Shown: positions 1 through 21,102 of the stretch, one piece after another
How positions within the stretch are numbered: position 1 is the first letter of the stretch
Layout of the letters: each line of letters starts with the position of its first letter
Assembly: GCA_020852555.1 (NCBI GenBank)
Contig: JADZAQ010000070.1
Coordinates: 1 to 48,797, forward strand
DNA length: 48,797 bases
From: Burkholderiales bacterium
GTDB lineage: Bacteria > Pseudomonadota > Gammaproteobacteria > Burkholderiales > Casimicrobiaceae
Direction of reading: 5' to 3'
The notes under the pieces: generated by a model
Told to the model about the DNA's origin: nothing
Seen by the model: only the letters and a program-made list of their open reading frames with translations
The model's database searches: none
Position numbers and translations under genes: made by a program

Positions 1-471
1 CACGCGCCCGGCGGCACCTTCGTGCGCCATGCGGATCGCCTCGGCGACCGGCGGCATGTAGCGATACTCGTGCGCCACCCAGACGATCCCCGCGGTGTCG
101 CGCCGGCGGCGTTCGGCTTCGCGCGCAACGAGCTCGACGCCGTCCTCGATGCGGGTGACGAGCGGCTTCTCGACGAGGATCGGAAGGTCGGTCGCAAGCG
201 CCTCGCGCAGCACCTCGGCGTGCGTGAAATTGGGCGTGGCGATGACGACCGCGTCGCACAGGCCGCTCGTCAGGAGTTCGCGCGGCTCGTCGAAGCTGCG
301 CGGCTCGCTACGGCAGATCGCGAGCGCCGCATCGCGGCTTGGTGCGTGCGGATCGGCGATCGCCGTGATGCTGGCCCCTCCGTCGGCGCGGGGCATCGCC
401 TGGATGTTCTCGATGTGCTCGCGGCCCATGCTGCCGCAGCCGATGATGCCGTAGCGAAGATGCCTCGTCAT
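1..471 (-). CDS. Gfo/Idh/MocA-family oxidoreductase, N-terminal part (cut by window edge)
   Basis: The first 157 codons of an NAD(P)-dependent dehydrogenase are visible; the rest lies beyond base 1. The N-terminus reads MTRHLRYGIIGCGSMGREH, a Rossmann GxGxxG fold start. It is followed by the family's ATPNFTHAEV segment and LVEKPL, which carries the lysine used to bind cofactor and substrate (EKP motif). The start at 471 is the first ATG of the frame and directly precedes the dinucleotide-binding strand. The gene is last of the visible leftward transporter operon, 47 bases after the second permease. Family members oxidise or reduce sugars, inositols and similar polyols; the substrate here is unknown. 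From context it may act on the compound brought in by the importer. The family assignment is firm, the substrate is open. Confidence 0.85.
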   Translation of the reverse strand, partial: MTRHLRYGIIGCGSMGREHIENIQAMPRADGGASITAIADPHAPSRDAALAICRSEPRSFDEPRELLTSGLCDAVVIATPNFTHAEVLREALATDLPILVEKPLVTRIEDGVELVAREAERRRRDTAGIVWVAHEYRYMPPVAEAIRMAHEGAAGRV

Positions 472-518
472 GTCTGTCGTCCTGGAATGTTGGCGCCGGC
501 GTGACCGGCGATGCCCCG

Positions 519-1346
519 TCAACCCTTCAGTCCACCTTGGGTGAGTCCGCCCACGACGCGTTCCTGGAAGATCGCGATGAGGACCGCGATCGGCACGATG
601 GCGACCACGAGGGCGGCCGAAATGGTGGGCCAGGGAAAGGTGAACTCGCCCTGATAGAGCGTGATGCCGACCGGGAGCGTGCGCATCCCGGCGCTCGCAT
701 TGAGCGACAAGGCAAGGAGGAACTCGTCCCACGCGTTGACGAAGGCGAGGATGCCCGCGGTGAAGACGCCCGGGGCGGCGAGCGGCACGACGACGCGCCA
801 GAGCGCGCCGACCCGCGTGCAGCCGTCGATCATCGCGGCGTTCTCGAGATCGCGGGGGATGCTCTGGAAGAAGCCGACGAGGACCAGCGTGCACACCGGC
901 AGGCTCAGCACTGTGTACGGCAGCACGAGCGCCGTGTAGGTGTTGAGCAGGCCCAGCGCACGCATCGTCTGGAAGATGGGAACGAGCAACGTCACCAGCG
1001 GAAACATGCTCGAGGCGACGATGCAGGTGAGGATGAGCTGCCGGCGGCGCAGGTTGAGCCGCGCGATCGCGTACGCGGCGAGTGCCGACACGACCAGCGC
1101 GAGTAGCGTGGACAGCGTCGCCACCGCGAGGCTGTTGCCGAGGTAGCGCAGCAGCGGCTGGTCGGTGAACGCCCGCTCGAAGTTGGCGAGCGTCGCCTGG
1201 CGCGGCCAATAGGTGATCGGCTTGCTGACGAGCTCCGCCTCGGTCTTGAGCGAGGTGAGCAGGATCCACACCGCCGGGAAGAAGCCGTTGACGACGACGA
1301 TCGCCGCAGCAACGAGCGTCAGCGGCCGGCCACGCGGGAGCGTCAC
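519..1346 (-). CDS. CUT1-type ABC transporter permease, MalG/UgpE-like
   Basis: Inner-membrane permease of about 275 residues, one of the two pore subunits of a carbohydrate-type ABC importer. It has an N-terminal membrane segment (about residues 10-30), several later hydrophobic segments, and the cytoplasmic EAA loop near ENAAMIDGCTRVGALWRVVVPLAAPG, which contacts the ATPase. The start is a GTG at 1346 whose last bases overlap the TGA of the upstream permease (GTGA), indicating translational coupling. A longer reading frame extends upstream but lies antisense to nothing useful and inside the neighbouring permease. Typical MalG-family length fits. The substrate cannot be read from the permease. 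Confidence 0.9.
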   Translation of the reverse strand: MTLPRGRPLTLVAAAIVVVNGFFPAVWILLTSLKTEAELVSKPITYWPRQATLANFERAFTDQPLLRYLGNSLAVATLSTLLALVVSALAAYAIARLNLRRRQLILTCIVASSMFPLVTLLVPIFQTMRALGLLNTYTALVLPYTVLSLPVCTLVLVGFFQSIPRDLENAAMIDGCTRVGALWRVVVPLAAPGVFTAGILAFVNAWDEFLLALSLNASAGMRTLPVGITLYQGEFTFPWPTISAALVVAIVPIAVLIAIFQERVVGGLTQGGLKG

Positions 1347-2245
1347 GCCTGGCTCCCGATACGGCGGAGATAGACCATGGTCACCGCGAGCGAGATCGCG
1401 AACATGAAGACGGCGAGCGTCGAGCCGTAGCCGACGTCGAGGTACTCGATCGTCGTCTTGTGGATGAGCATGGCGAGCGTCTCGGTCGCGTTGCCGGGTC
1501 CGCCGCGAGTCATCGTGTACGGGATGTCGAAGGTCTGCAACGCCGTGATCGTGCGAAAGATGAGCGCGACGATGATCGACGGCATCAGCATCGGAATCGT
1601 CACCTCGCGGAACTGTAGCCAGCGCGACGCGCCGTCGACCTCGGCTGCCTCGTAGAGCGAGCGCGGGATCATCTGCAGGCCGGCGAGCAGGATGAGCGCC
1701 ATGAACGAGCTCGTCTTCCAGATGATGGTGAGGCAGATCGCGGCGAATGCCCAGGCGGGGCGCAACAGCCACATCGTCGGCTCGCTGCCAAGACCCAGTC
1801 GGCGCACGAGGTCGTTGACGACGCCGTATTCGGTGTGGAAGAACCACGCGAAGATGAGCCCCGCGAAGGCGAGCGGCAGCGCCCACGGCAGCAAGAGGGC
1901 GAGGCGCACCGGCCACTGGCGCTTGAACGGCAGGTTCGCGAGCAGCGCGAGTCCCAGGCCGACGACGAGCGCCCCCGGCACCGTGATGACCGTGATGAGG
2001 AGCGTGTTGAACGTCGCGTTCCAGAAATCGCCGTCCTTCAGCACCAGGAGGTAGTTCTCGACGCCGACGAACTTCATCTGCCCGCCGCCGGAGAGCCGCA
2101 AATCGAAGAAGCTGTTGAAGACGAGCATGGCGATCGGATAGACGACGATGAGCGCCAGGAGCAGGAACGCCGGCGTGAGCAGCAACAGCCCGAGCGCCGC
2201 CTCGCTCGGGTCACGCAAGCGCCCCCACACGCTGGTGCCGGTCAT
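1343..2245 (-). CDS. CUT1-type ABC transporter permease, MalF/UgpA-like
   Basis: A 300-residue inner-membrane protein forming the second pore subunit of the importer. Hydrophobic segments begin at about residues 17-37 (LLLLTPAFLLLALIVVYPIA) and continue through the protein. The EAA loop is visible as YEAAEVDGASRWLQFREVTIPML. It lies 22 bases downstream of the binding-protein gene and overlaps the next permease by four bases. This gene order (ATPase, binding protein, permease, permease) is that of sugar and glycerol-phosphate importers of the CUT1 class. Nothing unusual is seen in the sequence. Substrate unknown. Confidence 0.9.
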   Translation of the reverse strand: MTGTSVWGRLRDPSEAALGLLLLTPAFLLLALIVVYPIAMLVFNSFFDLRLSGGGQMKFVGVENYLLVLKDGDFWNATFNTLLITVITVPGALVVGLGLALLANLPFKRQWPVRLALLLPWALPLAFAGLIFAWFFHTEYGVVNDLVRRLGLGSEPTMWLLRPAWAFAAICLTIIWKTSSFMALILLAGLQMIPRSLYEAAEVDGASRWLQFREVTIPMLMPSIIVALIFRTITALQTFDIPYTMTRGGPGNATETLAMLIHKTTIEYLDVGYGSTLAVFMFAISLAVTMVYLRRIGSQA

Positions 2246-2267
2246 GGTCGACCCGATCGCTTCGCGT

Positions 2268-3539
2268 TCAGCGCATCACTCGGGAGAGCCGCGATTCGAT
2301 CTCGGCCACCCCCGCTTCCGGCGTCTTGGTCCGGGCGAGCACCGCGCTCGTCGTGGTGCGGATGACGTCGCTCACTTGCCCGTAGTCCTTCGACAACGGC
2401 CGGCTCTTGCCGTCGATCACCACCTTCGCCGCGTCCTTGAACCAGGGCACGGCCTTGACGACTTCGGGGTCGACGTAGACGCTCTGGTAGACGGGCAGGA
2501 GCGAGCCTTCGACCGCGAGGAACTTGCTCGCCGCGGGCGTGGACATGAATTTCACGAGCTTTGCCGCCTCGGTCTTGTGCTTGCTGAACGCGCTCACTGC
2601 CCATTGCCAACCGCCCACGCAGGTGGCACTCTTGCCGCCGGTCATCGCCGGCAGCGGCATCACGCCGACCTTGCCCTTGACGGTGGAGTCATTGTCGACC
2701 TGGAAGCGATCCCACGCGAAGCCCCAGTTGATCGCGAAGACCACCTGACCCGCCTTGAACTCGTTGACGGTGTCGGGCGTCTTGACCTCGGCGACGTTCT
2801 TCTTGATGACGCCGTTGTCGACCATCCCGAGCCACATGTTGAGCCCCTTGACCGCGGCGGCCTTGTCGAGGGTGAGCTTGCCCGACGAGTCGTTGAACTC
2901 CTTCCCTTGACTCCAGTACGGCAGCAGGAAGGTGCACACCGCGCCCTCGATCGGCGCACCCTGGATGGACAGGCCCTGCAAGTTCGGATTGCCTTCGCCG
3001 GCCTGGATCTTCTTGGCGGCGCTCGCGAGTTCGTCCCAGGTCTTGGGCTCGGGAATCTTGTATTTCTCGAGAAGATCCTTGCGGTAGTACATGAACATCG
3101 CATCGGCGAAGGCAGGCATCGCGGCGACCTTGCCGTCGACGACGTTCGATTGCAGGTAGACGGGCAGGTACGCTTTCAACGCTTCCGCCGGAGCGCCGAC
3201 GAATGCATTGAGCGGCTCGAGCCAACCGGCGCCGAAGTACTGCGCCGGATTGACGATGTCGATCATGTAGATGTCGATCGCCGAGTCCTTGGCGTTGAGA
3301 ACGGTTGACAGATACTGCCGTTGCAGTTCGCTCGTCGCGCCGCCGGTCTCGATCCCGATCTTCACGCCGGGGTTGGCTGCCTGATACTGGTCGAAGAGCT
3401 TGCGCATGAGGTCGGGGCGTTGGTTGGCGCCGCCCGAGAACACGCGCAGCGTCGTGTCGGCAAGCGCGCTCGTCGCGCCGGACGCCACCGTGAAGCCGGC
3501 GCACAGCGCCAGCGCCTTCAATAACTTCAGTCGTTGCAT
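2268..3539 (-). CDS. Periplasmic solute-binding protein of a CUT1 ABC importer
   Basis: A 423-residue extracellular binding protein of the MalE/UgpB type (family 1 solute-binding). A signal peptide is clear: MQRLKLLKALALCAGF, then a small-residue stretch ending SALA before the mature DTTLRVFSGG. The start at 3539 is chosen because AGGAGAT stands seven to eight bases upstream and the signal peptide starts there; the frame is open 15 codons further but without merit. The mature part shows the family's PAFADAMFMYYRKDLLEKYKIPEPKTWDEL region. It sits between the ATPase gene (28 bases) and the first permease gene (22 bases). As the specificity subunit it decides what is imported. In context a sulfonated sugar, polyol or acid is inferred but not shown. 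Confidence 0.9.
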   Translation of the reverse strand: MQRLKLLKALALCAGFTVASGATSALADTTLRVFSGGANQRPDLMRKLFDQYQAANPGVKIGIETGGATSELQRQYLSTVLNAKDSAIDIYMIDIVNPAQYFGAGWLEPLNAFVGAPAEALKAYLPVYLQSNVVDGKVAAMPAFADAMFMYYRKDLLEKYKIPEPKTWDELASAAKKIQAGEGNPNLQGLSIQGAPIEGAVCTFLLPYWSQGKEFNDSSGKLTLDKAAAVKGLNMWLGMVDNGVIKKNVAEVKTPDTVNEFKAGQVVFAINWGFAWDRFQVDNDSTVKGKVGVMPLPAMTGGKSATCVGGWQWAVSAFSKHKTEAAKLVKFMSTPAASKFLAVEGSLLPVYQSVYVDPEVVKAVPWFKDAAKVVIDGKSRPLSKDYGQVSDVIRTTTSAVLARTKTPEAGVAEIESRLSRVMR

Positions 3540-3567
3540 CGTCGATCTCCTATGGATGGAACGCGGG

Positions 3568-4641
3568 TCAAAGCAGCGCCGCACCGGTCGCGGCGTCGAA
3601 CAAATGCAGATGCCCCGGGGACACGTGAAGCGTCACCGCGCTGCCCGGCGGATCGCGGAACGATGCCGGGCAGCGCGCGACCATCTCCACGCTCCCGACT
3701 TTCAACGTCACCAGCGTCTCGGCCCCGAGCGGCTCCAAGAGCGAAACCTCCGCCGGAACTGCGATGTCGGTGGAGGTGGGAGCGAGGCGCAGGTTCTCGG
3801 GGCGCACGCCGAACTTGACGGCGGCAACGCCGGCGCCTCGCGCGGCGAGATCGGCGGGCAGCGGGACGCGCACGCCGCCCAGGTCGGCGGCGCGCTCGAC
3901 GATCGTGCAATCGACGAGGTTCATCGGCGGCGCCCCGGTGAAGCCGGCGACGAAGACCGCCGCTGGACGATGGTAGATCGCGTCGGGCGTGTCGTACTGC
4001 ATCTTGTGTCCCGCCGAGAGCACCGCGATGCGATCGGCGAGCGTCATCGCCTCCACCTGGTCGTGCGTCACGTAGACGATCGTCGCGTTGAGGCGCTGGT
4101 GGAGGCGCTTGATCTCGGTGCGCATCTCGTTGCGCAACTGCGCGTCGAGGTTGGACAGCGGCTCGTCGAAGAGGAAGACCTTGGGCTCGCGCACGATCGC
4201 GCGCCCGATCGCCACGCGCTGGCGCTGGCCACCGGAAAGCGCCGCCGGTCTTCGCTCGAGCATGTGCTCGATGCGCAGGAGCCTGGCGACGTTCATCACG
4301 CGCTCGCGAATCACCGGCTCGGGCGTCTTGCGCAGGCGCAACCCGAACGCCATGTTCTCGTAGAGCGTCTTGTGCGGGTAGAGCGCGTAGTCCTGGAACA
4401 CCATCGCGATGTCGCGGCTGCGCGGCGGCAGATCGTTGACGGTCACGCCGTCGATGCGAACCTCGCCGCCGGAGATCGACTCGAGCCCCGCGATCATCCG
4501 CAGCAGCGTGCTTTTGCCGCAACCGGAGGGCCCCACGAAGACGACGAACTCGCCGTGCCGGATCTCGAGGTCGATCCCGTGCACGACCGTGGTCTTTCCG
4601 TCGTAGCTCTTGGTGACGCCGCGAAGCTCGACCTGCGCCAT
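3568..4641 (-). CDS. ABC transporter ATP-binding protein, UgpC/MsmK/MalK-like
   Basis: A 357-residue cytoplasmic ATPase that powers the importer. Walker A is GPSGCGKST (residues 37-45), the Q-loop is VFQDYALYPH (81-90), the signature is LSGGQRQR (135-142) and Walker B is FLFDEP (156-161). These are followed by the D-loop SNLDAQLR and the H-loop YVTHDQVEA. The C-terminal third is a regulatory TOBE/OB-like domain, as in MalK and UgpC. The start at 4641 is fixed by MAQVELRGVTKSY, the usual beginning of this family, and by the TGATG junction with the aldolase gene. All catalytic motifs are intact. Confidence 0.92.
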   Translation of the reverse strand: MAQVELRGVTKSYDGKTTVVHGIDLEIRHGEFVVFVGPSGCGKSTLLRMIAGLESISGGEVRIDGVTVNDLPPRSRDIAMVFQDYALYPHKTLYENMAFGLRLRKTPEPVIRERVMNVARLLRIEHMLERRPAALSGGQRQRVAIGRAIVREPKVFLFDEPLSNLDAQLRNEMRTEIKRLHQRLNATIVYVTHDQVEAMTLADRIAVLSAGHKMQYDTPDAIYHRPAAVFVAGFTGAPPMNLVDCTIVERAADLGGVRVPLPADLAARGAGVAAVKFGVRPENLRLAPTSTDIAVPAEVSLLEPLGAETLVTLKVGSVEMVARCPASFRDPPGSAVTLHVSPGHLHLFDAATGAALL

Positions 4642-5432
4642 CAGTAGCTGCCTTCGATGCGGTAGGCGACCGGCGCGGCGCGCAACGCCTGCACGGCACC
4701 CTGCGCGGCGCGCATGAGGAGGCCGAGGTCGGAGGCGATCGCCACGTAGTCGTAGCCGATCTCGCGGTAGCGCGCGACCACCTCCGGCGTGCCGCCGACG
4801 CTGCCGATCGGCTTGCCGACGGCGCGCGCGCGGCGCGCGGCATCGGCCATCGCCGCCATCACGTCGGCGTGCGTCGGTTGGCCGGGGAGGCCCATGCTGC
4901 CGGAGAGGTCGCCAGGACCGACGAAGAGCGCGTCGATGCCCGGCACCGCGGCGATCGCTTCGAGATTGGCGATCGCCTGCGGCGTTTCGAGCTGCACCAC
5001 GACGCCGATCGTTGCGTTCGCGCCGCGCAGGAAGTCGGGCGTGGTGCCGAAGCGCGAGGCACGACTCATCCCCGCCATCCCGCGCACGCCCTCGGGCGGA
5101 TAGCGGGTGGCGGCGACCGCACGCGCCGCTTCCTCGGCGTTCTGGATGAAGGGAAAGAGCAGCGTCGGCGCGCCTGCGTCGAGCACGCGCTTGACGCTGA
5201 CCGTATCGTTCCAAGGCACCCGCACCACCGGCGCCATCGGCGTATTGCCGACTGCCTGCAGGAGGTGGACGAGCCCCATGAGGTCGATCGGCGTGTGCTC
5301 CATGTCGAGGACGCCCCAATCGAAGCCCGCGGCACCCACGGCCTCCGCGACGATCGGGCTCGCGGACATCACCCAGGTGCCGAGCGGGGTCTTCGTCGCA
5401 CGGTCGGCCAGCAGTCGGTGGAATACGTTCAT
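4641..5432 (-). CDS. HpcH/HpaI-family class II pyruvate aldolase
   Basis: A 263-residue metal-dependent aldolase that cleaves 2-keto-3-deoxy acids to pyruvate plus an aldehyde, or catalyses related lyase reactions. Compared with E. coli HpaI the catalytic set is intact: D43 and H46 in LDMEHT, R71 in VRVPWND, and the metal ligands E149 (QLETPQ) and D175 (VGPGDL). The segment RYPPEGVRGMAG is also typical. It is the first enzyme of the leftward operon and its stop codon overlaps the start of the ATPase gene, so it is coupled to import. The 2-keto-3-deoxy-6-sulfogluconate aldolase of the bacterial sulfo-Entner-Doudoroff route is, as I recall, of this family. With the sulfolactate genes next door that is an attractive role, but it is inference. 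Confidence 0.88.
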   Translation of the reverse strand: MNVFHRLLADRATKTPLGTWVMSASPIVAEAVGAAGFDWGVLDMEHTPIDLMGLVHLLQAVGNTPMAPVVRVPWNDTVSVKRVLDAGAPTLLFPFIQNAEEAARAVAATRYPPEGVRGMAGMSRASRFGTTPDFLRGANATIGVVVQLETPQAIANLEAIAAVPGIDALFVGPGDLSGSMGLPGQPTHADVMAAMADAARRARAVGKPIGSVGGTPEVVARYREIGYDYVAIASDLGLLMRAAQGAVQALRAAPVAYRIEGSY

Positions 5433-5505
5433 CGGAACTCTCGCGTGAGTGGATCGTGATTTCGGGCCTCGGCAGCGTCGACGGTGTCGTGCGCGCTGTG
5501 CGCGG

Positions 5506-6285
5506 TCAGGTGGGCCGCGACAACTGGTTCACGTAGTCGTGCGTCGTCGTGACGATGGTGCTCACCCGATACTCGACGGGGCGGCCGCCGAGCGCGATCG
5601 CCGTGCGCCTGACCTGGAGCACCGGGACACCGGGTGACACGCCGAGCGCGCGCGCGTTCGCCCGGTCGGCGAGCGCCGCGCGCAGCCGCTCGCGGGCCCG
5701 CACGACGGTGACGCCGAATTCGCTCTGGTAGAGGTGGTAGATCGTACTCGGCCGCTCGCGCAGGCGCTTCTCGGTCAAGCCGCGGAACTGCGTCGCGGAA
5801 ACGACGACGCGGTCGTGGACGATCGCCTTGCCCTGGAGCGCCAGGCGATTCTCGAATTGGAATCCCGGTGCACCGGCGCGCGTCGCGAGCGCCGCCGCGG
5901 CGTCGTCGTCCAGGCGGACCCGTTCGAATCCCAGGAGCTCGACGGTGGGCGCCTCGCGCAGCCCGTCGCTACGCTCGACGTGAAAAAACTGGAAGAGGAA
6001 ACGGTCGCGCGTGTGCGTTGCGACGAACGTGCCGCGTCCCTGACGCCGCACCAGGATATGCTCCGCGACGAGGTCGTCGACCGCGCGACGCAAGGTGCCG
6101 ACCGCGACGCCGAACGTCCCGGCGAGGTCGGCCTCGTTGGGCAGCGCTGCACCCGGTGCCAACTTTCCTTCCTCGATCGCGCGCAGCAACGCGCGCCGCA
6201 CGGCGCGGTACAGCGGCATGCCCGCCGCGTCGGGTGCGATCGGCGCGAAGGGGAGGGCGGAAGCGCGAGTCCGGGCGGGTGACAT
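5506..6285 (-). CDS. GntR-family transcriptional regulator with UTRA ligand domain
   Basis: About 259 residues. The N-terminal winged helix is plain: PLYRAVRRALLRAIEEGKL, then LPNEADLAGTFGVAVGTLRRAVDDL and the wing RRQGRGTFV. The C-terminal two thirds is a UTRA-type ligand-binding domain (HutC subfamily), ending YRVSTIVTTTHDYV. The start at 6285 (MSPARTRAS) is preferred to the ATG at 6321. A leftward -10-like TATGAT at 6322-6327 would put the transcript start downstream of 6321. There is no clear ribosome site at either. The gene lies at the head of the leftward operon and faces the suyA promoter, so it probably controls both directions in answer to a pathway compound. Confidence 0.88.
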   Translation of the reverse strand: MSPARTRASALPFAPIAPDAAGMPLYRAVRRALLRAIEEGKLAPGAALPNEADLAGTFGVAVGTLRRAVDDLVAEHILVRRQGRGTFVATHTRDRFLFQFFHVERSDGLREAPTVELLGFERVRLDDDAAAALATRAGAPGFQFENRLALQGKAIVHDRVVVSATQFRGLTEKRLRERPSTIYHLYQSEFGVTVVRARERLRAALADRANARALGVSPGVPVLQVRRTAIALGGRPVEYRVSTIVTTTHDYVNQLSRPT

Positions 6286-6322
6286 GCGGCCATTGTGGCG
6301 TCGTCCGTTCGACGCGTCCATA

Positions 6323-6334
6323 TCATATAGATGA
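6323..6334. promoter_or_regulatory. Candidate operator TCAT-ATAG-ATGA in the divergent control region
   Basis: A short perfect inverted repeat, TCAT and ATGA separated by four bases, lies five bases upstream of the rightward -35 element. It overlaps a leftward -10-like TATGAT (6322-6327). It is the only AT-rich patch between the regulator and suyA. Its position would let one bound regulator affect both directions. The link to the neighbouring GntR protein is inference. Confidence 0.4.
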
Positions 6335-6339
6335 CGTGA

Positions 6340-6369
6340 TTGACGACGCTGCCGCGGCGCCCCGATACT
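6340..6369 (+). promoter_or_regulatory. Candidate sigma-70 promoter for suyA-suyB-slcC-comC
   Basis: TTGACG at 6340-6345 is followed after 18 bases by GATACT at 6364-6369, about 50 bases upstream of suyA. The -35 matches consensus at five of six positions and the -10 at four of six. It lies just downstream of the inverted repeat at 6323-6334. Confidence 0.45.
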
Positions 6370-6421
6370 GCGCCTCGACGACCCCGGAGCACCGTTGCGC
6401 GGGGCGCGAGAGGAGGCAGCG

Positions 6422-6703
6422 ATGATTCATTTCGTATTGCACGACGCGAAGGACAGCGTGGCCGTCGTCGTCGTCGAGGGCGTCAAGGCGGGAATGGAAC
6501 TCTCCGGCTGGATCATGGACGACGACCGGACGACACGGGTCACGGCGAAGCAGGACATCCCCATCGGCCACAAGGTTGCGCTGCGCGACATGGCGGTGGG
6601 CGACACCGTGATCAAGTACGGCATCGACATGGGCAAGGTCGTCAAGTCGATCCACGCGGGCGAGCACGCGCACGTCCACAACATCAAGACCAAGCGCTGG
6701 TGA
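6422..6703 (+). CDS. suyA: (R)-sulfolactate sulfo-lyase, small (SAF-domain) subunit
   Basis: A 93-residue stand-alone SAF domain of the UxaA family. It contains [22 protein letters not shown] and the C-terminal [14 protein letters not shown], which ends in the HVHN motif typical of family N-domains. In altronate dehydratase this domain is fused to the large one; here it is separate and 17 bases upstream of the large subunit. That is the arrangement of SuyA/SuyB, which split 3-sulfolactate into pyruvate and sulfite. Start 6422 has GAGGAGG-like bases (AGAGGAGGCAGCG) just upstream. The family is certain. The sulfolactate role rests on the split layout, the partner and the two neighbouring dehydrogenases. 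The alternative is another two-subunit hydroxyacid dehydratase. Confidence 0.78.
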
Positions 6704-6720
6704 GACGGAGAACAACGACC

Positions 6721-7896
6721 ATGGCAACGATCGGCAAGGACACCACCTTCCTGGGCTACCGGCGCGAGAACGGGCGCGTCGGTGTGCGCAACCACGTCAT
6801 CATCCTGCCGCTGGACGACCTGTCCAATGCGGCGGCGGAAGCGGTGGCGCACAACATCAAGGGGACGATGGCGATCCCGCACCCGTACGGGCGCCTGCAG
6901 TTCGGCGCCGACCTCGATCTCCATTTCCGCACGCTTATCGGCACCGGCTGCAATCCGAACGTGGCAGCGGTGGTGGTGATCGGCATCGAGGACGGCTGGA
7001 CGCAGAAGGTCGTCGACGGCATCAAGGCGACCGGCAAGCCGGTCTGCGGCTTCGGCATCGAGTTGCACGGGGACCACGACACCATCCTGCGCGCCTCCAA
7101 GGCGGCGCGCGAGTACGTGCAGTGGGCGAGCGAGAAGCAGCGCGAGCGCTGCGGGATCTCCGAGCTGTGGGTCAGCACCAAGTGCGGCGAGAGCGACACC
7201 ACGAGCGGCTGCGGCGCCAATCCGTCGGTCGGCAACGCCTTCGACAAGCTGCATCCGCTCGGCAACTACCTGTGCTTCGGCGAGACGACCGAGCTCACCG
7301 GCGGCGAGCACATCGTCGCCGCGCGTTGCGCGAACGATGCGGTGCGCGAGCGCTTCATGTTCATGTTCGACCGCTACCAGGACGTCATCGACCGCCACAA
7401 GACGAGCGATCTGTCGGACAGCCAGCCGACCAAGGGCAACATCGCCGGCGGGCTCACGACGATCGAGGAGAAGGCGCTCGGCAACATCCAGAAGATCGGC
7501 AAGAAGTGCACCGTCGACGGCGTCATCGACAAGGCCGAGATGCCGACGCACCCGGGGCTTTGGTTCATGGATTCGTCGAGTGCTGCCGCTGAAATGGTCA
7601 CGCTGTGCGCGGCCTCGGGTTATGCGGTGCACTTCTTTCCGACGGGGCAGGGCAACGTCATCGGCAATCCGATCCTCCCGGTCATCAAGATCTGCGCGAA
7701 TCCGCGTACCGTGCGGACCATGAGCGAGCACATCGACGTCGACGTGACGGGCCTCCTGCAGCGTGAGATGACGCTCGACCAGGCCGGCGACAGGCTCCTC
7801 GAGTGCATGCTGCGCACCGTGAACGGGCGGCTGACCGCCGCCGAGGCGCTCGGCCACCGCGAGTTCGTGCTCACCCGGCTGTACGAGAGCGCATGA
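6721..7896 (+). CDS. suyB: (R)-sulfolactate sulfo-lyase, large subunit (UxaA/GarD family)
   Basis: About 391 residues of the UxaA/GarD dehydratase large domain; the start is [19 protein letters not shown] at 6721, with GAGA a few bases upstream. Visible family blocks are [36 protein letters not shown] (a conserved cysteine block), [33 protein letters not shown] and [13 protein letters not shown]. These blocks closely resemble SuyB as I remember it, down to an end like EALGHREF. With SuyA it should cleave the C-S bond of (R)-3-sulfolactate, releasing sulfite and pyruvate in the cytoplasm. Sulfite disposal genes are not in view. The enzyme could instead be a dehydratase for a sugar acid, but the neighbours favour sulfolactate. 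Confidence 0.76.
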
Positions 7897-7921
7897 TCGC
7901 CCACGTGCCGGGAGCCGGGCG

Positions 7922-8848
7922 ATGAGCCGGATCGTCATCACCGAGTTCATGGACGAGCGCGCGGTGGCGAAGCTCGCCGCGCGTCACGACGTGCTCTACG
8001 ATCCGGCGCTCGTCGATGACGCGCCGCGCCTCGCGCGCGAGGCGGCGGGTTGCGACGCCATCGTCGTGCGCAACCGCACGCAGGTGCGTGGGGCGTTGCT
8101 GGGCGCGCTCGCTCGCTGCCGCGTCGTCGGCCGTCTGGGTGTCGGCCTCGACAACATCGATGTCGCCGCTTGCGCCGCGAAGGGGATGCAGGTGATTCCC
8201 GCCACCGGCGCCAACGCGCTGGCGGTCGCCGAGTACGTGATCGGGACCGCGATGCTGCTGTTGCGCGGCGTCTACCGGTCGTCGTCGTCGGTCGCTGCCG
8301 GCGAGTGGCCGCGCACCGCGCTGTCGTCGGGACGCGAGCTTGCCGGCAAGACGCTGGGCCTCGTCGGTTTCGGGTCGATCGGGCAGCTCACCGCGCGGCT
8401 CGCCCGCGCACTGGGCATGGAGGTCGTCGCGTGCGATGCGCTGCTGGATATGCACGATCCCGCCTACGGCGCTGCCGGTGTGCGCGCAGCGGACCTCGAC
8501 GAGGTCCTGCGCACGGGCGACGTGGTCAGTCTGCACGTGCCGCTCGTCGAGTCGACGCGGGGCCTCTTCTCGGCAGCGCGCATTGCCGCGATGAAGCGCG
8601 GTGCCGTGCTCATCAATACCGCCCGCGGCGGCATCGTCGACGAAGTCGCGCTCGCCGATGCCTTGCGCAACGGCCACCTCGGCGGCGCTGCGATCGACGT
8701 ATTCGGCGTCGAGCCGCTGCCTGCTTCACCGCACTTCGTGGACTGCCCGAATCTCATCCTGACGCCGCACGTCGCCGGCGTCACCGCCGAGGCGAACGAG
8801 CGGGTGAGTTTCCTCATCGCGGATCGCGTGCTGGAGGCGCTGGCGTGA
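7922..8848 (+). CDS. slcC: D-2-hydroxyacid dehydrogenase, probable (S)-sulfolactate dehydrogenase
   Basis: A 308-residue NAD-dependent dehydrogenase of the D-isomer-specific 2-hydroxyacid family. The dinucleotide site is GFGSIG (residues 149-154). The catalytic triad is present: R235 in NTARGGIVDE, E264 in FGVEPL and H283 in TPHVAG. In Chromohalobacter salexigens a member of this family (SlcC) oxidises (S)-sulfolactate to sulfopyruvate, and the next gene type (ComC) reduces it to the (R) form used by SuyAB. The same two gene types follow suyAB here, with a four-base overlap between them. The family assignment is strong and the substrate is inferred from this set. Confidence 0.78.
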   Translation: MSRIVITEFMDERAVAKLAARHDVLYDPALVDDAPRLAREAAGCDAIVVRNRTQVRGALLGALARCRVVGRLGVGLDNIDVAACAAKGMQVIPATGANALAVAEYVIGTAMLLLRGVYRSSSSVAAGEWPRTALSSGRELAGKTLGLVGFGSIGQLTARLARALGMEVVACDALLDMHDPAYGAAGVRAADLDEVLRTGDVVSLHVPLVESTRGLFSAARIAAMKRGAVLINTARGGIVDEVALADALRNGHLGGAAIDVFGVEPLPASPHFVDCPNLILTPHVAGVTAEANERVSFLIADRVLEALA

Positions 8849-9846
8849 GACTCTCCATCGACGAGGCGCGTGCCGTGGTCGCGCGTGCCCTCGTGCAGGC
8901 AGGGGCCTCGTCCGCGATGGCCGAATCGACCGCGCGCGCGCTCGTGCTTGCGCAAACGCAGGGCTTGGGATCGCATGGTCTGTCACGCGTTGCGCAGTAC
9001 GCGACGCACCTTCGCAACGGGCGCGTCGATGGCGCGGCGGTGGCGTCGGTCATCGGTCACAAGGGCGGTGCCATCGTCGTCGATGCAGCGAGTGGCCTCG
9101 CCTTTCCGGCCTGCGACCTCGCGATCCGCGAGGCGATCGCCGCCGCGCGCGAGCACGGTGTGGCCTACGCCGCGGTGACGCGCAGCCATCATTGCGGCGT
9201 GCTCGTCGATCACCTGCGGCCGGTCGCCGCCGCCGGGATGGTCGGGCTCGGCTTCGCGAACTCGCCTTCCGCCATGCCGGCGGCCGGCGGGCGCCACGCG
9301 ATCTTCGGCACCAATCCGATCGCCGCGGTATTTCCCCGACGCGCGGCGGATGCGCTACTCATCGATTTGAGCCTGTCCGAGACGGCGCGCGGCAAGGTGA
9401 TGGTCGCCGCCAAGGAGGGCAAGCCGATCCCGCTCGGCTGGGCGCTCGATGCTCAGGGTCAGCCCACCACCGACGCCAAGGCGGCACTCGACGGCTCGAT
9501 GCTGCCGATCGGCGCGGCATCGTCGCCGAAGGGCGCGATGCTGGCGCTTGTCGTCGAGCTTCTCGTGACCGCGTTGATCGGCGGCCGCTACGGCTTCGAA
9601 GCGTCGAGTTTCTTCGTCGACGAAGGCAATCGTCCGGGCATCGGCCAGGCGTTCATCGTCGTCGATCCCGGCGCCCTCGCCGGCGCCGACGCATACTTCG
9701 ATCGCCTCGAGGTACTGGTGACCGAAATGCTGAAGGACGCAGGCGTACGCCTGCCCGGCGCGCGCCGCGAAGCACTGCGTCGGCGGGCCGAGGCCGACGG
9801 CATCGACGTGCCGGACGAGCTCGTCAGTCGGGCACGCGGCGGCTAA
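8845..9846 (+). CDS. comC: Ldh2/malate dehydrogenase-family oxidoreductase, probable (R)-sulfolactate dehydrogenase
   Basis: A 333-residue NAD(P)-dependent dehydrogenase of the lactate/malate type 2 family, unrelated in fold to its neighbour. It shows the family's GLGSHGLSRV, the VTRSHHCGVL block with the catalytic histidine region, GGRHAIFGTNPIA, and SPKGAMLAL with FFVDEGNRP. The start is a GTG at 8845 sharing bases with the TGA of slcC (GTGA), so translation is coupled. ComC proteins interconvert sulfopyruvate and (R)-sulfolactate. With SlcC it would make a two-enzyme racemase feeding SuyAB. The last four bases overlap the convergent protease gene. Confidence 0.78.
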   Translation: MRLSIDEARAVVARALVQAGASSAMAESTARALVLAQTQGLGSHGLSRVAQYATHLRNGRVDGAAVASVIGHKGGAIVVDAASGLAFPACDLAIREAIAAAREHGVAYAAVTRSHHCGVLVDHLRPVAAAGMVGLGFANSPSAMPAAGGRHAIFGTNPIAAVFPRRAADALLIDLSLSETARGKVMVAAKEGKPIPLGWALDAQGQPTTDAKAALDGSMLPIGAASSPKGAMLALVVELLVTALIGGRYGFEASSFFVDEGNRPGIGQAFIVVDPGALAGADAYFDRLEVLVTEMLKDAGVRLPGARREALRRRAEADGIDVPDELVSRARGG

Positions 9847-11984
9847 ATCGGCGAGCAGAACACCACCGCCTCCGTCCCCGACCCCTCCGCGACCCACGCG
9901 CGGTTGTTCATGCCGCGGCGCACGGAGAGATCGACCGTGTAGCGGTGGTTGGCGTCCTGCCGGCCGTTGAAGAAGCGATACACGGGCAGCGTGTGCTGCG
10001 GGCAGCTGCCGCCGGCATCGGGAATCTGGATGTAGAAGGCGTTCGCGGTCTCGAGATCCCACACGCCAGGCCAGTTGAGCAGCACCGCGAGGCACTCGTC
10101 GAAGTTGGCCGAGTAGTAGTGCGAGTTGATCAGCGTGTCGGCGTTCGCATAGAAGCGGCACACCGGCTGCACGTCGGCCGGTGCGGTCGCCGGGTCGAGC
10201 CACGCGTAGAAGTAAAGCCCCGTACGCTTGAAGATGTCACCGAGGCTGGCATCGATCCATGCTGCCTCGGCGGGATCGGCGGTGATGAAGTAATGATCGA
10301 GGTCGCTGCGGTAGTACTCGACGACGGGGGTCGTGCCGGGCGGGGGTGCGCCGCCACCAGGGAGCAGGCTGCCGACCGCGCTGGCGGCATCGAGCATGCC
10401 CGCGCCGCACACGTTGGGGACGAGACACGGCGAGCCCGGCGGCCAGTCGTGCGCGGTGCCGGTGAGCAGATCGAGCACACGTCCGCCGGTGATGAGGCTG
10501 TCGCGGGCGATCAGCATCGCGGCCACACCGGAGACCAGCGGGGCCGCGAAGCTCGTGCCCGCCGCGTAGCCGTACGACGGCTCGGTGGGCACCGTCGCAC
10601 CGTCGTTGGTGAGTCCGAAGATGAGATCGGTCAGCGGCCGGTCGCCTCCCGGAGCCGTGAGGTCGATGCGCCGTCCGAAGTTCGAGTAGCTCGTGAGCTC
10701 GCCTTGCGCCCCGTGGGCGCCGACGGTGATGACACCGCTGCAGTTGGCGGGGGCGACGTCGGCGGCCTCGAGCGACGAATTGCCGGCGGCGGCGACGATC
10801 ACCGAGCCTTGCGCGAGGGCGAGATCGACCGCTTCCTGCATCGCCTGGTCGCAGGCGCCGTAGCCGCCCAGCGAGAGGTTGATCACCTTGGCGGGATTCT
10901 GATTGGGCGGCACGCCGGCGATCGGCACCCCCGACGCCCAGAGCATGCCTTCGAGGACGTCCTCGAACGTGCCGCCGCACTTGCCGAGCACGCGCACCGG
11001 CAGGATCTGCACGCCGCTGGCCACGCCCGCGATGCCGATCCCGTTATTCGAATTGGCGGCGATGACGCCGGAGACGAAGAGCCCGTGGAAGAAGCTCGGA
11101 AAGTCGGCGCCGCCACAGTCGCCAGCGCTCCAGTCGCCCTCGTCGCGCGGGTTGGGATCGCGGGCGTCGCCGTCGCGTGCGCGGCCGGGATCGGAGATGA
11201 AATCGTAGCCCGGCAGGACGCGGCCCACGAGATCCGGGTGCGGCAGGATGCCGGTGTCGACGACGGCGACGGTGATGCCGTGCAGGTCGGGCTGCAGCGT
11301 CCACGCGGTCTCCGCGTTGACGCCGGCGACCGGGTTGTGCAGGCCCCACTGCAGCGGATAGTACGGGTCGTCGGGAGCGGCAAAAGCCGTCACCCGGCGG
11401 ACGGGATCGGCATAGCGCACCTCGGGCTGCGTCTGGATGAGTTGCGCCATCGTGCGCAGGGTGCCGATCGACTGCTGGGAGCCGGTCTCCAGCACGTAGA
11501 CCTGCGCGATCTGCCGCACGAGCGTCAACGGCGTGCCGACCAGTGCGGACAGGCGAGCGAGGAGCGACGGCAAATCCGGGGTGGCGTCGTCGCGCAAGCG
11601 GACGAGGAGGCGCCGCCCGGGCTCGCGGTCGGCGTCGATGACGGCTGCCGAGCGCGCGGCAACCTCCCGCACGATGGGCTCCGCCCACAGTACGCCACGG
11701 TCGACGCGCAGCTCCTTCACCAGTGCGGCGGCGACGTCGTCGCTGACCGGCGCCGGCAGCGCGAGTTCGAGCGCGCCGGTGCGCGTGGTGCCGACGAGCG
11801 TCAGCGGGCTGGCGACGATGGCCTCGAGGCTGGCCCTGGCGGTCGCGGGCCATTCGCCCGGCGCCGCCGTGTACGGATGCAGCATGACGCGCAGCGCGCT
11901 CACGCTTCCGGCAAACGCGGGCACTGTCGCGCACGAGAGGAAGGCCAAGGCGCCGATCAGCGCGCCGCGAATCGCGTAGTGCAT
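9843..11984 (-). CDS. Secreted S8 (subtilisin-family) serine protease with C-terminal repeat domain
   Basis: A 713-residue exported protease. The signal peptide is MHYAIRGALIGALAFLSC followed by TVPAFA. A prodomain-like part runs to about residue 205. The catalytic domain holds D243 (VVDTGI), H300 (HGLFVSG, in place of the usual HGTHVAG) and S478 (GTSFAAP), with the oxyanion region AAAGNSS. After a Gly/Pro linker (LPGGGAPPPG) there are about 160 residues of repeats such as VVEYYRSDLDHYFIT, CRFYANADTLINSHYYS and VYRFFNGRQDANHRYT. These resemble the DUF5648 beta-propeller-like repeat common in betaproteobacterial surface proteins. It probably acts outside the cell. It converges on comC with a four-base overlap. 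The triad is complete, so activity is expected. Confidence 0.9.
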   Translation of the reverse strand: MHYAIRGALIGALAFLSCATVPAFAGSVSALRVMLHPYTAAPGEWPATARASLEAIVASPLTLVGTTRTGALELALPAPVSDDVAAALVKELRVDRGVLWAEPIVREVAARSAAVIDADREPGRRLLVRLRDDATPDLPSLLARLSALVGTPLTLVRQIAQVYVLETGSQQSIGTLRTMAQLIQTQPEVRYADPVRRVTAFAAPDDPYYPLQWGLHNPVAGVNAETAWTLQPDLHGITVAVVDTGILPHPDLVGRVLPGYDFISDPGRARDGDARDPNPRDEGDWSAGDCGGADFPSFFHGLFVSGVIAANSNNGIGIAGVASGVQILPVRVLGKCGGTFEDVLEGMLWASGVPIAGVPPNQNPAKVINLSLGGYGACDQAMQEAVDLALAQGSVIVAAAGNSSLEAADVAPANCSGVITVGAHGAQGELTSYSNFGRRIDLTAPGGDRPLTDLIFGLTNDGATVPTEPSYGYAAGTSFAAPLVSGVAAMLIARDSLITGGRVLDLLTGTAHDWPPGSPCLVPNVCGAGMLDAASAVGSLLPGGGAPPPGTTPVVEYYRSDLDHYFITADPAEAAWIDASLGDIFKRTGLYFYAWLDPATAPADVQPVCRFYANADTLINSHYYSANFDECLAVLLNWPGVWDLETANAFYIQIPDAGGSCPQHTLPVYRFFNGRQDANHRYTVDLSVRRGMNNRAWVAEGSGTEAVVFCSPI

Positions 11985-19172: not shown

Positions 19173-21035
19173 ATGGCGCTCCTGCAGATCGCCGAGCCCG
19201 ATGCCTCCCCGGCGCCGCACGCGCGCAAGCGGGCGATCGGCATCGACCTCGGAACCACCCATTCGCTGGTGGCGACCGTCCGCCACGGTCTGGCGGTGGT
19301 CCTGCCCGACGCCGAAGGCCGGCCGCTGGTGCCGTCGATCGTGCGTTACGGCGAGGATGGCGTCACCACCGGCTATGCGGCGATGGCCAAGCAGGCGGCC
19401 GATCCGCACAACACGATCGTGTCGGCGAAACGCCTCATGGGCCGCGGGCTCGCCGATCTCGACGACGAGCGCCGCTTTCCGTATCGTTTCGTCGACGCGC
19501 CAGGGATGGTCCGGATCGGCACGCGGGCCGGCGTCAAATCGCCGGTGGAGGTCTCCGCCGATCTCCTGCGCGCCTTGCGCGAGCGCGGCGAGGCGTCGCT
19601 CGGCGGCCCCATCGACGGCGCGGTCGTCACCGTGCCGGCGTATTTCGACGAAGCGCAGCGCCAGGCGACCAAGGACGCCGCACGGGTCGCCGGACTGCCG
19701 GTCCTGCGCCTCCTGAACGAGCCGACCGCCGCGGCGATCGCGTACGGCCTCGACAATGCCGCGGAGGGGGTATACGCGGTCTACGACTTGGGCGGCGGCA
19801 CCTTCGACATCTCGATCCTGCGGCTCGCCAAGGGCGTGTTCGAGGTGCTGGCAACGAGCGGCGACACCGCCCTTGGGGGCGACGATTTCGACCATCGCGT
19901 GTTCTGCTGGATCATCGAGGCGGGCAAGCTGCCGCCGCCGTCCGCCGCCGACGCGCGTTCGCTGCTGGTCAAGGCGCGGACCGCCAAGGAGCAACTCACC
20001 CTGCACGACGAGGTGCCGATCGTCGCGCGGCTTGCCGATGGCACGCCGGTCGACCTCGTCCTCACCCGGACCACGCTGACCGAGATCACCGCCAATCTGG
20101 TCGCCAAGACGCTGCAGCCGGTCAAGCGCGCGCTGCGCGACGCGAAGCTCACGGTGTCGCAGGTGAACGGCGTGGTGCTCGTCGGTGGCGCCACCCGCAT
20201 GCCGCAGGTGCGGCGCGCCGTCGCCGAGCTCTTCGGGCAGCCGCCGTTGACCAATCTCGACCCCGACGAGGTAGTGGCGCTCGGTGCCGCGATCCAGGCG
20301 AACAAGCTCGTCGGCAATCGCGAGGACGACGACTGGCTGCTGCTCGACGTGACGCCGCTCTCGCTCGGCCTGGAGACGATGGGCGGGCTCGTGGAGAAGG
20401 TCATCCCGCGCAATTCGACGCTCCCCGTCGCCCGCGCGCAGGAGTTCACCACCTTCAAGGATGGCCAGTCGGCGATGGCGATCCACGTGGTGCAAGGCGA
20501 GCGCGAGAAGGTCGCCGACTGCCGCTCGCTCGCGCGCTTCGAGTTGCGCGGCATCCCGCCGATGGCCGCGGGTGCGGCCCGCGTCCGCGTCAGCTTCGCG
20601 GTCGACGCCGACGGACTCCTCGAGGTGAGCGCGCGGGAAGAAGCATCCGGCGTCGCGGCGCAGGTCAGCGTCAAGCCGTCGTACGGCCTGTCCGACGGCG
20701 AGATCGCGCGGATGCTGCAGGATTCCTTCGCCCACGCCGCCGACGACATGCGCGCCCGCGCGCTCGCCGAGGAGCAGGTCGAGGCCGACCGCCTCGTCGA
20801 AGCCACGCGCAGCGCGCTCGCCGCCGACGGCGACCTCGTTGCCGCCGACGAGCGTGCCCGTATCGATGACGCGCTCGCGACCGTCGCGCGGCTGCGCGCC
20901 GGCGGCGAGCACGCCGCGCTGCGCGCCGCCAACGCGCAACTCAACCGCGTCACCGAACCCTTTGCCGCACGTCGCATGGATCGCGGGGTACGGCGAGCGC
21001 TTGCCGGGCGCCGCGTCGACGCGCTCTCCGACTGA
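19173..21035 (+). CDS. hscA: Hsp70-class chaperone HscA
   Basis: A 620-residue specialised Hsp70 that releases the cluster from IscU. The nucleotide-binding domain shows [12 protein letters not shown] (phosphate 1), [44 protein letters not shown] (phosphate 2) and [10 protein letters not shown] (adenosine). The substrate domain carries [17 protein letters not shown] and [11 protein letters not shown], and lacks the long acidic tail of DnaK, as expected for HscA. Start 19173 is about 17 residues before the first strand, as in HscA. It lies within isc, and the gap before fdx is unusual (see the repeat there). Confidence 0.96.
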
Positions 21036-21049
21036 TGAACGAGCCCCCA

Positions 21050-21067
21050 CGCTCGCTTCGCTCGCTG
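21050..21067. repeat. Short direct repeat CGCTCGCTT/CGCTCGCTG after hscA
   Basis: Two nine-base units differing in one base lie 15 bases after hscA. Similar GCTCGCTTCGCTCGC strings are common between genes in betaproteobacteria, in my experience. It belongs to the same 176-base hscA-fdx spacer as the larger inverted repeat. Confidence 0.4.
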
Positions 21068-21102
21068 CCGCCACGGGCGCCGCTGACGAAAGACTTCACC
21101 AA

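Follow-up and report, generated by a model that had tools for sequence, protein, structure and literature searches.

The window analysed here is the whole of one contig (C70, positions 1–48797, that is, 48,797 nucleotides) of a Burkholderiales assembly of 3.83 Mb in 282 contigs (completeness 94.0, contamination 5.1). Its first 9,846 bases carry predicted sulfolactate-degrading genes beside a sugar-type importer and an aldolase, and we suggest that this locus is one part of a tandem in which a sulfo-Entner–Doudoroff (sulfo-ED) route and the sulfo-lyase SuyAB would together convert sulfoquinovose (SQ) to pyruvate and sulfite.

Gene content of the two divergent operons

The minus strand starts with GntR and continues with the aldolase, the ATPase, the binding protein, a pair of permeases and the opening 157 codons of a Gfo/Idh/MocA gene, the spacing between successive genes being 73, none, 28, 22, none and 47 bases. 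The contig ends at base 1, and the flank further left lies beyond the readable sequence. Divergent from this import operon, the plus strand carries suyA–suyB–slcC–comC. The parts named in the original prediction (that is, the suy genes, a CUT1 importer, an HpcH/HpaI aldolase and a Gfo/Idh/MocA gene in divergent operons) all lie where it had placed them; the GntR/UTRA gene between the two halves had gone unmentioned.

1–471, minus strand: N-terminal 157 amino acids of a Gfo/Idh/MocA protein (PF01408, 82 bits), running off base 1
519–1346, minus strand: CUT1 ATP-binding cassette (ABC) permease in the MalG-type position (PF00528, BPD_transp_1)
1343–2245, minus strand: CUT1 ABC permease in the MalF-type position (PF00528, BPD_transp_1), a conserved neighbour in relatives
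2268–3539, minus strand: periplasmic binding protein, SmoF-type (SBP_bac_1; best solved structure SmoF)
3568–4641, minus strand: UgpC-type ABC ATPase (PF00005, TOBE_2, OB_MalK)
4641–5432, minus strand: HpcH/HpaI aldolase, putative 2-keto-3,6-dideoxy-6-sulfogluconate (KDSG) aldolase (PF03328, 145 bits)
5506–6321, minus strand: GntR/UTRA regulator (PF00392, PF07702), between the two operons
6323–6334, no strand: operator-like palindrome TCATATAGATGA, from an intergenic alignment
6340–6369, plus strand: predicted sigma-70 promoter of suyA (TTGACG, 18 nt, GATACT), from a consensus scan
6422–6703, plus strand: suyA, predicted (R)-sulfolactate sulfo-lyase small subunit, 93 amino acids, by identity to an HN-2 protein and synteny
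6721–7896, plus strand: suyB, predicted (R)-sulfolactate sulfo-lyase large subunit (GD_AH_second, GD_AH_C)
7922–8848, plus strand: slcC-like, predicted (S)-sulfolactate dehydrogenase (2-Hacid_dh domains)
8845–9846, plus strand: comC-like, predicted (R)-sulfolactate dehydrogenase (best NCBIfam model NF040650)

Most proteins encoded in positions 1–9846 receive only general names from Pfam and NCBIfam. For the binding protein, the best solved structure is SmoF (7nbz; 468 bits, E = 2.8e-139), ahead by a factor of two of the next solved match, a maltose-binding protein (213 bits), and we predict that this SmoF-type protein binds sulfoquinovosyl glycerol (SQGro) or SQ. The ATPase scores above the cut-off of the NCBIfam UgpC subfamily (472 versus 432). 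The aldolase falls below the cut-off for the NCBIfam equivalogs GarL, HpaI and rhamnonate aldolase; it belongs to PF03328, the Pfam family given for KDSG aldolase (PMC9594981), a correspondence with the sulfo-ED pathway at the level of family membership only, and may yield pyruvate and 3-sulfolactaldehyde from KDSG.

In the plus-strand operon, the suyA product has no Pfam match at 1e-5 and shares 73% identity with the product of the suyB neighbour in Cupriavidus pinatubonensis HN-2, a species published as a SuyAB user (PMC9594981); SuyB is 85% identical to an HN-2 protein that adjoins annotated hpsN and hpsO and is itself named only UxaA family hydrolase in the record. No SuyAB-specific model in Pfam or NCBIfam was matched by the window proteins, and the top NCBIfam model of the comC-like product, L-sulfolactate dehydrogenase (NF040650), scores 176 bits, under its cut-off of 500. 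The two-subunit UxaA/GarD-family make-up of SuyAB is nevertheless present in an SlcC/ComC context, and we predict that the pair is an (R)-sulfolactate sulfo-lyase. An ordinary galactarate/altronate dehydratase was considered and rejected, given the split gene, the identity to the HN-2 protein beside hpsN/hpsO and the company of SlcC and ComC; the other UxaA-type genes of this genome show 31–36% identity. In a set of 61 relatives' genomes (E <= 0.001), SuyB matches occur in 42, and a class at 79–97% identity is set clearly apart from other UxaA-type matches (<=48%). Around 20 SuyB loci of relatives, some of which stop at contig ends, we found suyA in 20, slcC in 13, comC in 13 and a GntR gene in 11. 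The presence of both dehydrogenases is explained by stereochemistry, as aldolase cleavage yields the S form (PMC12421959) and the R form is the substrate of SuyAB.

Beyond this operon, an open reading frame on the opposite strand (9843–11984) shares four bases with the end of comC and resembles, by eye, a subtilisin-type protease with extra C-terminal sequence.

Relatives of the importer and their partner genes

A pattern-based scan of a genome collection, confined to close relatives of the importer, gave 83 matches; 80 of them were retained and represent 78 distinct loci, mostly in Burkholderiales or betaproteobacteria (the exceptions include Methylobacillus, Amantichitinum, Deinococci and one Cytophagales bin), and neighbour genes were compared all-against-all and by tblastn. 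Loci with an IlvD/EDD dehydratase or an HpcH aldolase were placed in an ED class and those with a luciferase-type monooxygenase or flavin reductase in a sulfoquinovose monooxygenase (SMO) class; this gave 39 ED loci, 25 SMO loci, 14 with neither and 0 with both, and the 14 unclassed loci were excluded from two-class tests. An HpcH/HpaI aldolase stands near the importer in 38 of the 78 loci, and the 39 ED loci hold HpcH (38), dehydratase (35), short-chain dehydrogenase/reductase (SDR; 29), LacI (29), Gfo (29), epimerase (12) and lactonase (10) genes. The permease at 519–1346 has a counterpart in 35 of the 39, at 69–90% identity. The Pfam families of these ED relatives, assigned on examples (PF00920, PF13561 and PF03328, with PF08450 in 10 of 39 loci) are those named for the dehydratase, dehydrogenase, aldolase and lactonase of known sulfo-ED (PMC9594981).

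The SDR of the relatives has as its best solved match the SQ 1-dehydrogenase of P. putida (261 bits; unnamed SDRs reach 237 and 223). The SQ-binding residues Arg152 and Arg154 of SQ dehydrogenase, which form part of the sulfonate pocket (PMC12133307), fall within a W-x-R-G-R-P stretch of the relatives' SDR, and the loop W-M/L-R-G-R-P was found in all 19 readable sequences among 30 ED-class hits (>=45% identity; 11 were unreadable by that pattern). A second SDR pattern gave 25 matches in ED loci, a count to be read with the fact that the pattern itself required basic residues there. One locus (L074) carries the dehydratase, aldolase, importer, GH188-type Gfo, SDR, suyA, suyB, slcC and comC on one contig and one strand. 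The ED-type cluster is present in duplicate in Piscinibacter defluvii SH-1 (G097; L078 and L143) and in G109 (L092 and L103).

The SMO loci (L071, L086, L091, L093, L094, L096, L097, L099–L102, L105, L108–L111, L113, L115, L117–L119, L122, L123, L127 and L136) show the same importer family with sulfoquinovose-monooxygenase-like genes in Limnohabitans-type and related genomes; Gfo is present in 21 of the 25 and a GntR-type regulator in 24. The SmoF-type importer is common to these loci and to known sulfo-SMO clusters, and the 25 SMO loci lack Suy genes. We take the structures 7oh2/7olf to be SmoC and 8c54 to be RlGabD.

At least one of suyA, suyB, slcC and comC lies within the importer's stretch (up to ~21 kb) in 13 of the 78 loci, all 13 of them sulfo-ED, which argues that the pairing of importer and Suy genes is more than chance; the difference between classes (13/39 ED versus 0/25 SMO, p = 9e-4) uses an ED count that is a lower bound, owing to contig ends. 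A genome-wide SuyB search (E <= 1e-100), covering 50 of the 78 loci (28/39 ED, 22/25 SMO) in 48 genomes, found SuyB in 23 genomes, namely 22 of 26 ED genomes versus 1 of 22 SMO genomes (Fisher p 1e-8), counts that are not independent because the compared genomes are related and many SMO genomes are Limnohabitans-type, which weighs against a strong reading of the association. Such a skew is expected, as the SMO route releases sulfite at once and the ED route leaves sulfolactate for Suy. Rhizobacter sp. Root404, Piscinibacter defluvii SH-1 and Polaromonas sp. P2-4 are among the named isolates that have both an ED cluster and SuyB. Several Suy loci also carry tripartite-tricarboxylate-type binding proteins.

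The Gfo/Idh/MocA gene had been described as a dehydrogenase; its full-length relatives lie nearest to GH188 SqgA, and the product is probably a glycosidase (a putative NAD-dependent sulfoquinovosidase) that would act before the pathway, and not a dehydrogenase within it. The full-length relative at L143 scores 335 and 332 bits against the GH188 SqgA structures and 310 bits against 8zn9 ('Oxidoreductase, putative'), all others reaching <=87. The GH188 residues K107, Y136, R166, K172, E189, H193 and H321 (PMC10755693) are kept in the alignment of the relatives' Gfo, and the K107, Y136, E189/H193 and H321 motifs are present in 27–28 of the 28 ED loci in which the loop motif is seen. The window fragment keeps EKP and EYRYMPP (that is, K107 and Y136), covers only these two of the listed residues and ends just before the sulfonate-binding loop around position 170, where L170 touches the sulfonate by its backbone only (PMC10755693). 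Wherever the motif is present, this position is Tyr in the ED loci (28 of 28) and Leu in the SMO loci (20 of 20); the motif is missing from 11 ED and 5 SMO loci.

An absolute Tyr (ED)/Leu (SMO) rule was considered and dropped, as it is broken by an ED cluster with Leu on a Burkholderia multivorans plasmid. This plasmid (NZ_CP048444.1, 39784–56986; L194), typed as conjugative and from a sputum isolate, bears a sulfo-ED-like cluster with a GH188-type Gfo (Leu170); by annotated names, its set runs dehydratase–aldolase–importer–epimerase–SDR–Gfo, plus glycerol kinase and glycerol-3-phosphate dehydrogenase, and is possibly a mobile island for SQGro utilization. Glycerol-3-phosphate dehydrogenase genes also occur at 5 of 39 ED loci and 5 of 25 SMO loci, which would fit the release of glycerol from SQGro.

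GH188 enzymes within sulfo-ED clusters have already been published (PMC10755693), and Tyr at position 170 in our 28 ED loci matches Tyr variants already described, which sit in clusters that include genes for sulfolactate lyase (PMC11465081). The two Tyr-variant clusters displayed in that source are from Actinobacteria and most resemble sulfo-Embden–Meyerhof–Parnas (sulfo-EMP) clusters, unlike the loci described here.

A palindrome before suyA and at sulfo-ED clusters

An alignment of 18 GntR–suyA spacers yields the palindrome family consensus TCATNTANATGA; TTGAC is found in all 18, with the palindrome close by or overlapping. The window holds a single exact match, between GntR and suyA, plus two one-mismatch matches (shuffled expectation at <=1 mismatch, 0.13), and the one sigma-70 promoter found by the scan (0.1 expected) lies directly behind it. 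The palindrome also stands exactly before suyA in C. pinatubonensis HN-2. Across 2.20 Mb of window plus loci there are 21 exact sites, of which 20 precede Suy, GntR, SlcC or sulfo-ED-type genes by <=300 bases and one lies elsewhere. Seven exact rows, in six distinct places (L137 and L146 coincide), belong to sulfo-ED-type genes. With <=1 mismatch, the palindrome occurs at both modules in five genomes: that of L121, G022, G015, G002 and G003. In all of these but the L121 genome, the binding protein of the sulfo-ED-type cluster is only 51–66% identical and no Gfo adjoins it, which makes the substrate less sure. The palindrome is not universal: among ED clusters of the LacI type whose importer is close to that of the window, L121 alone shows it.

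GntR probably represses suyA at this promoter-side palindrome. The true GntR start is probably near 6285, because the start at 6321 abuts the operator. No terminator-like site was found in the 73-base gap between GntR and the aldolase, and, as the import operon follows GntR directly, joint control of the two halves is plausible. In some Suy/ED promoters (L029, L041, L137/L146, L147, L151, L157 and L159), overlapping copies of the palindrome lie ~9 bases apart, which suggests cooperative or alternative repressor binding.

A probable sulfo-ED/SuyAB tandem and its alternatives

Genes, their nearest families, conserved synteny, co-occurrence and the palindrome are observed directly in the DNA, and enzymatic activities, substrate and regulation are inferred from them. 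On this basis we hold, with good confidence, that the locus is one part of a sulfo-ED plus SuyAB tandem from SQ to pyruvate and sulfite. The SmoF-type CUT1 importer would take up SQGro or SQ, from which the GH188-type Gfo would set free SQ and glycerol. KDSG would then arise through an SDR-type SQ dehydrogenase, a hydrolysis that is either spontaneous or catalysed by a lactonase, and a sulfogluconate dehydratase of the IlvD/EDD type, and the aldolase at 4641–5432 would split it into pyruvate and (S)-3-sulfolactaldehyde. A putative aldehyde dehydrogenase would give (S)-sulfolactate, SlcC and ComC would invert this via sulfopyruvate to (R)-sulfolactate, and SuyAB would release pyruvate and sulfite; GntR is the likely repressor of suyA and may co-control the import operon behind its own gene.

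The proposal that the importer and aldolase serve a sulfosugar is most likely right, given the SmoF-type binding protein, the GH188-type relatives and the sulfo-ED gene set, and conversion of a sulfosugar to pyruvate and sulfite in one organism gains support from the Suy co-occurrence, the shared operator and the same gene set. For the steps between, suggested as possibly lying to the left of base 1, relatives have an IlvD/EDD dehydratase, an SDR and, in 10 of 39 ED loci, a lactonase. In this genome, the best candidate for the dehydratase sits on a separate contig, no such SDR turned up in the assembly and no gene dedicated to sulfolactaldehyde oxidation was recognized.

Several observations weigh against this tandem. 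With the relatives' SDR as query, nothing above 36% identity was found in this assembly, a search that cannot show absence because the contig stops inside Gfo and, in a same-genus genome (G012), the SDR directly follows Gfo; the relatives' Gfo C-terminus likewise has no match in the assembly. The dehydratase candidate (PF00920 type, 64% identical) is on contig C37, next to a LacI-type gene and together with another, different sugar cluster; it is sister to the sulfo-ED dehydratases with a support of 93/83, below the starred level, and on a long branch. No sulfolactaldehyde dehydrogenase was recognized by eye in the 13 Suy-linked loci, and the GabD-type genes near three relatives' clusters are closer to succinate-semialdehyde dehydrogenases in general. 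As to the disposal of sulfite, this genome has no PF03601 protein (a family that we take to be the putative sulfate exporter/SuyZ), and its sole PF00174 protein is YedY-like by eye. It also has a GH31 gene, so GH188 need not be its sole glycosidase. The nearest relatives by SuyB (97, 96 and 92%) show no such binding protein, and the importer–Suy pairing in this genome is therefore probably recent, although G001 is only 89% complete.

Our first view of the C37 IlvD as unrelated was dropped, as the tree places it, without full support, as sister to the sulfo-ED dehydratases. The same contig (L185, 1279–15116) bears a second sugar cluster, in which a separate CUT1 importer is accompanied by lactonase, SDR, amidohydrolase-type and Gfo genes (some families by eye); a lactonase-like gene there, only 34% similar, was met in passing, no dedicated lactonase search having been made in this genome. 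A GabD-type gene (61%) on contig C74 is unlinked to the pathway, and the query that found it resembles succinate-semialdehyde dehydrogenases in general. At L142, a PF03601 protein follows comC (20052–21083), and related genes occur in L085 and L121.

The strongest competing explanation, which we consider improbable, is that the left operon encodes a Dahms-type route for an unsulfonated sugar or pentose, its place beside the sulfolactate operon being accidental. The relatives' dehydratase is indeed named L-arabinonate dehydratase by NCBIfam (899 bits versus a cut-off of 882), and the best NCBIfam model of their SDR is D-xylose 1-dehydrogenase (below cut-off), both of which also count against the SQ tandem; the nearest solved structures of the aldolase are GarL and HpaI, and in close relatives the Suy operon is not accompanied by the import operon. 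An unsulfonated substrate is nevertheless hard to reconcile with the SmoF-type binding protein, the GH188-type Gfo, an SDR nearest to SQ dehydrogenase, the swap with SMO genes, the distribution of SuyB between ED and SMO genomes and the palindrome at both modules.

That the substrate is sulfofucose rather than SQ, as in the published Paracoccus tandem, has only a slim chance: the design is shared (ABC importer, PF03328 aldolase, SuyAB, SlcC and ComC; PMC12421959), but the sulfofucose dehydratase is PF13378/PF02746 and that of the relatives here PF00920 (the window shows neither), and the GH188-type and SmoF-type proteins indicate SQ glycosides. It is just as improbable that the importer supplies the Suy operon with a C3 sulfonate, either sulfolactate or dihydroxypropanesulfonate (DHPS), and that the aldolase is incidental. 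The importer does adjoin that operon and comes immediately after the GntR gene, but it also accompanies SMO-type genes in genomes that lack SuyB, several Suy loci have tripartite-tricarboxylate-type binding proteins, and the nearest solved relative of the binding protein binds SQGro.

Extending the SQ tandem to the order, we favour, by a small step beyond even, a Burkholderiales regulon in which one GntR/palindrome pair would jointly control SQ import and cleavage (sulfo-ED, GH188) and sulfolactate desulfonation, such that single cells, and not consortia of two members, would mineralize SQ; in this genome a single divergent promoter region would drive both halves. Our confidence in the tandem and in the joint regulon is slightly lowered by the cluster with Leu at position 170 and by the lower identity of the clusters that share the palindrome.

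The route had been offered as possibly new, which is not supported in the chemical sense: the relatives' genes are those of known sulfo-ED, and a closely similar sulfofucose ED plus SuyAB tandem has been published (PMC12421959). With the chemistry known and the precedents close, we regard the locus as a variant and not a new kind of system. Known sulfo-ED exports sulfolactate (PMC12890257, PMC10599462), whereas here an SlcC/ComC/SuyAB module is linked, and it includes SlaB/GabD, of which no dedicated counterpart was recognized in the Suy-linked loci. The sulfofucolytic–sulfolactate sulfolyase tandem of Paracoccus wurundjeri likewise combines an ED-type route with SlcC, ComC, SuyAB, an ABC importer and a PF03328 aldolase, and its sulfolactaldehyde dehydrogenase was not identified either; it differs in its sugar, its dehydratase (PF13378/PF02746) and its host, a Paracoccus (PMC12421959). 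In Ensifer sp. HO-A22, conversion of SQ to sulfite in one organism was suggested via sulfo-ED plus a DHPS-degrading cluster, a sulfonate module unlike SuyAB, and close linkage, an operator and GH188 are not described in the part of that report available (PMC10599462). The Chromohalobacter-type slcC/comC/suyAB operon has a matching racemase-plus-lyase gene set, and its regulator suyR and importer SlcHFG differ in name from the GntR and CUT1 proteins here (PMC6018796). SuyAB is also known from extended sulfo-transaldolase (sulfo-TAL) clusters (PMC9594981). Among the matches listed by a literature search with subscription papers mostly outside its coverage, there was no SQ sulfo-ED/SuyAB tandem in Burkholderiales and no such operator.

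SQ is produced at ~10 billion tons a year (PMC10755693), and a recent review leaves the sulfolactate formed by sulfo-ED to other bacteria (PMC12890257). If our reading is true, linkage of sulfo-ED and Suy genes under a common operator would allow single Burkholderiales cells to release the sulfur of SQ, a task for which a division of labour between different bacteria is the usual account. In a 2026 probing study, Burkholderiaceae labelled by 13C-sulfoquinovose were interpreted as probable secondary feeders, since they showed no canonical cluster, though they do encode sulfolactate degradation (PMC13372026); the tandem would offer a testable alternative to this interpretation and, as named isolates carrying the gene set exist, the prediction is directly testable.

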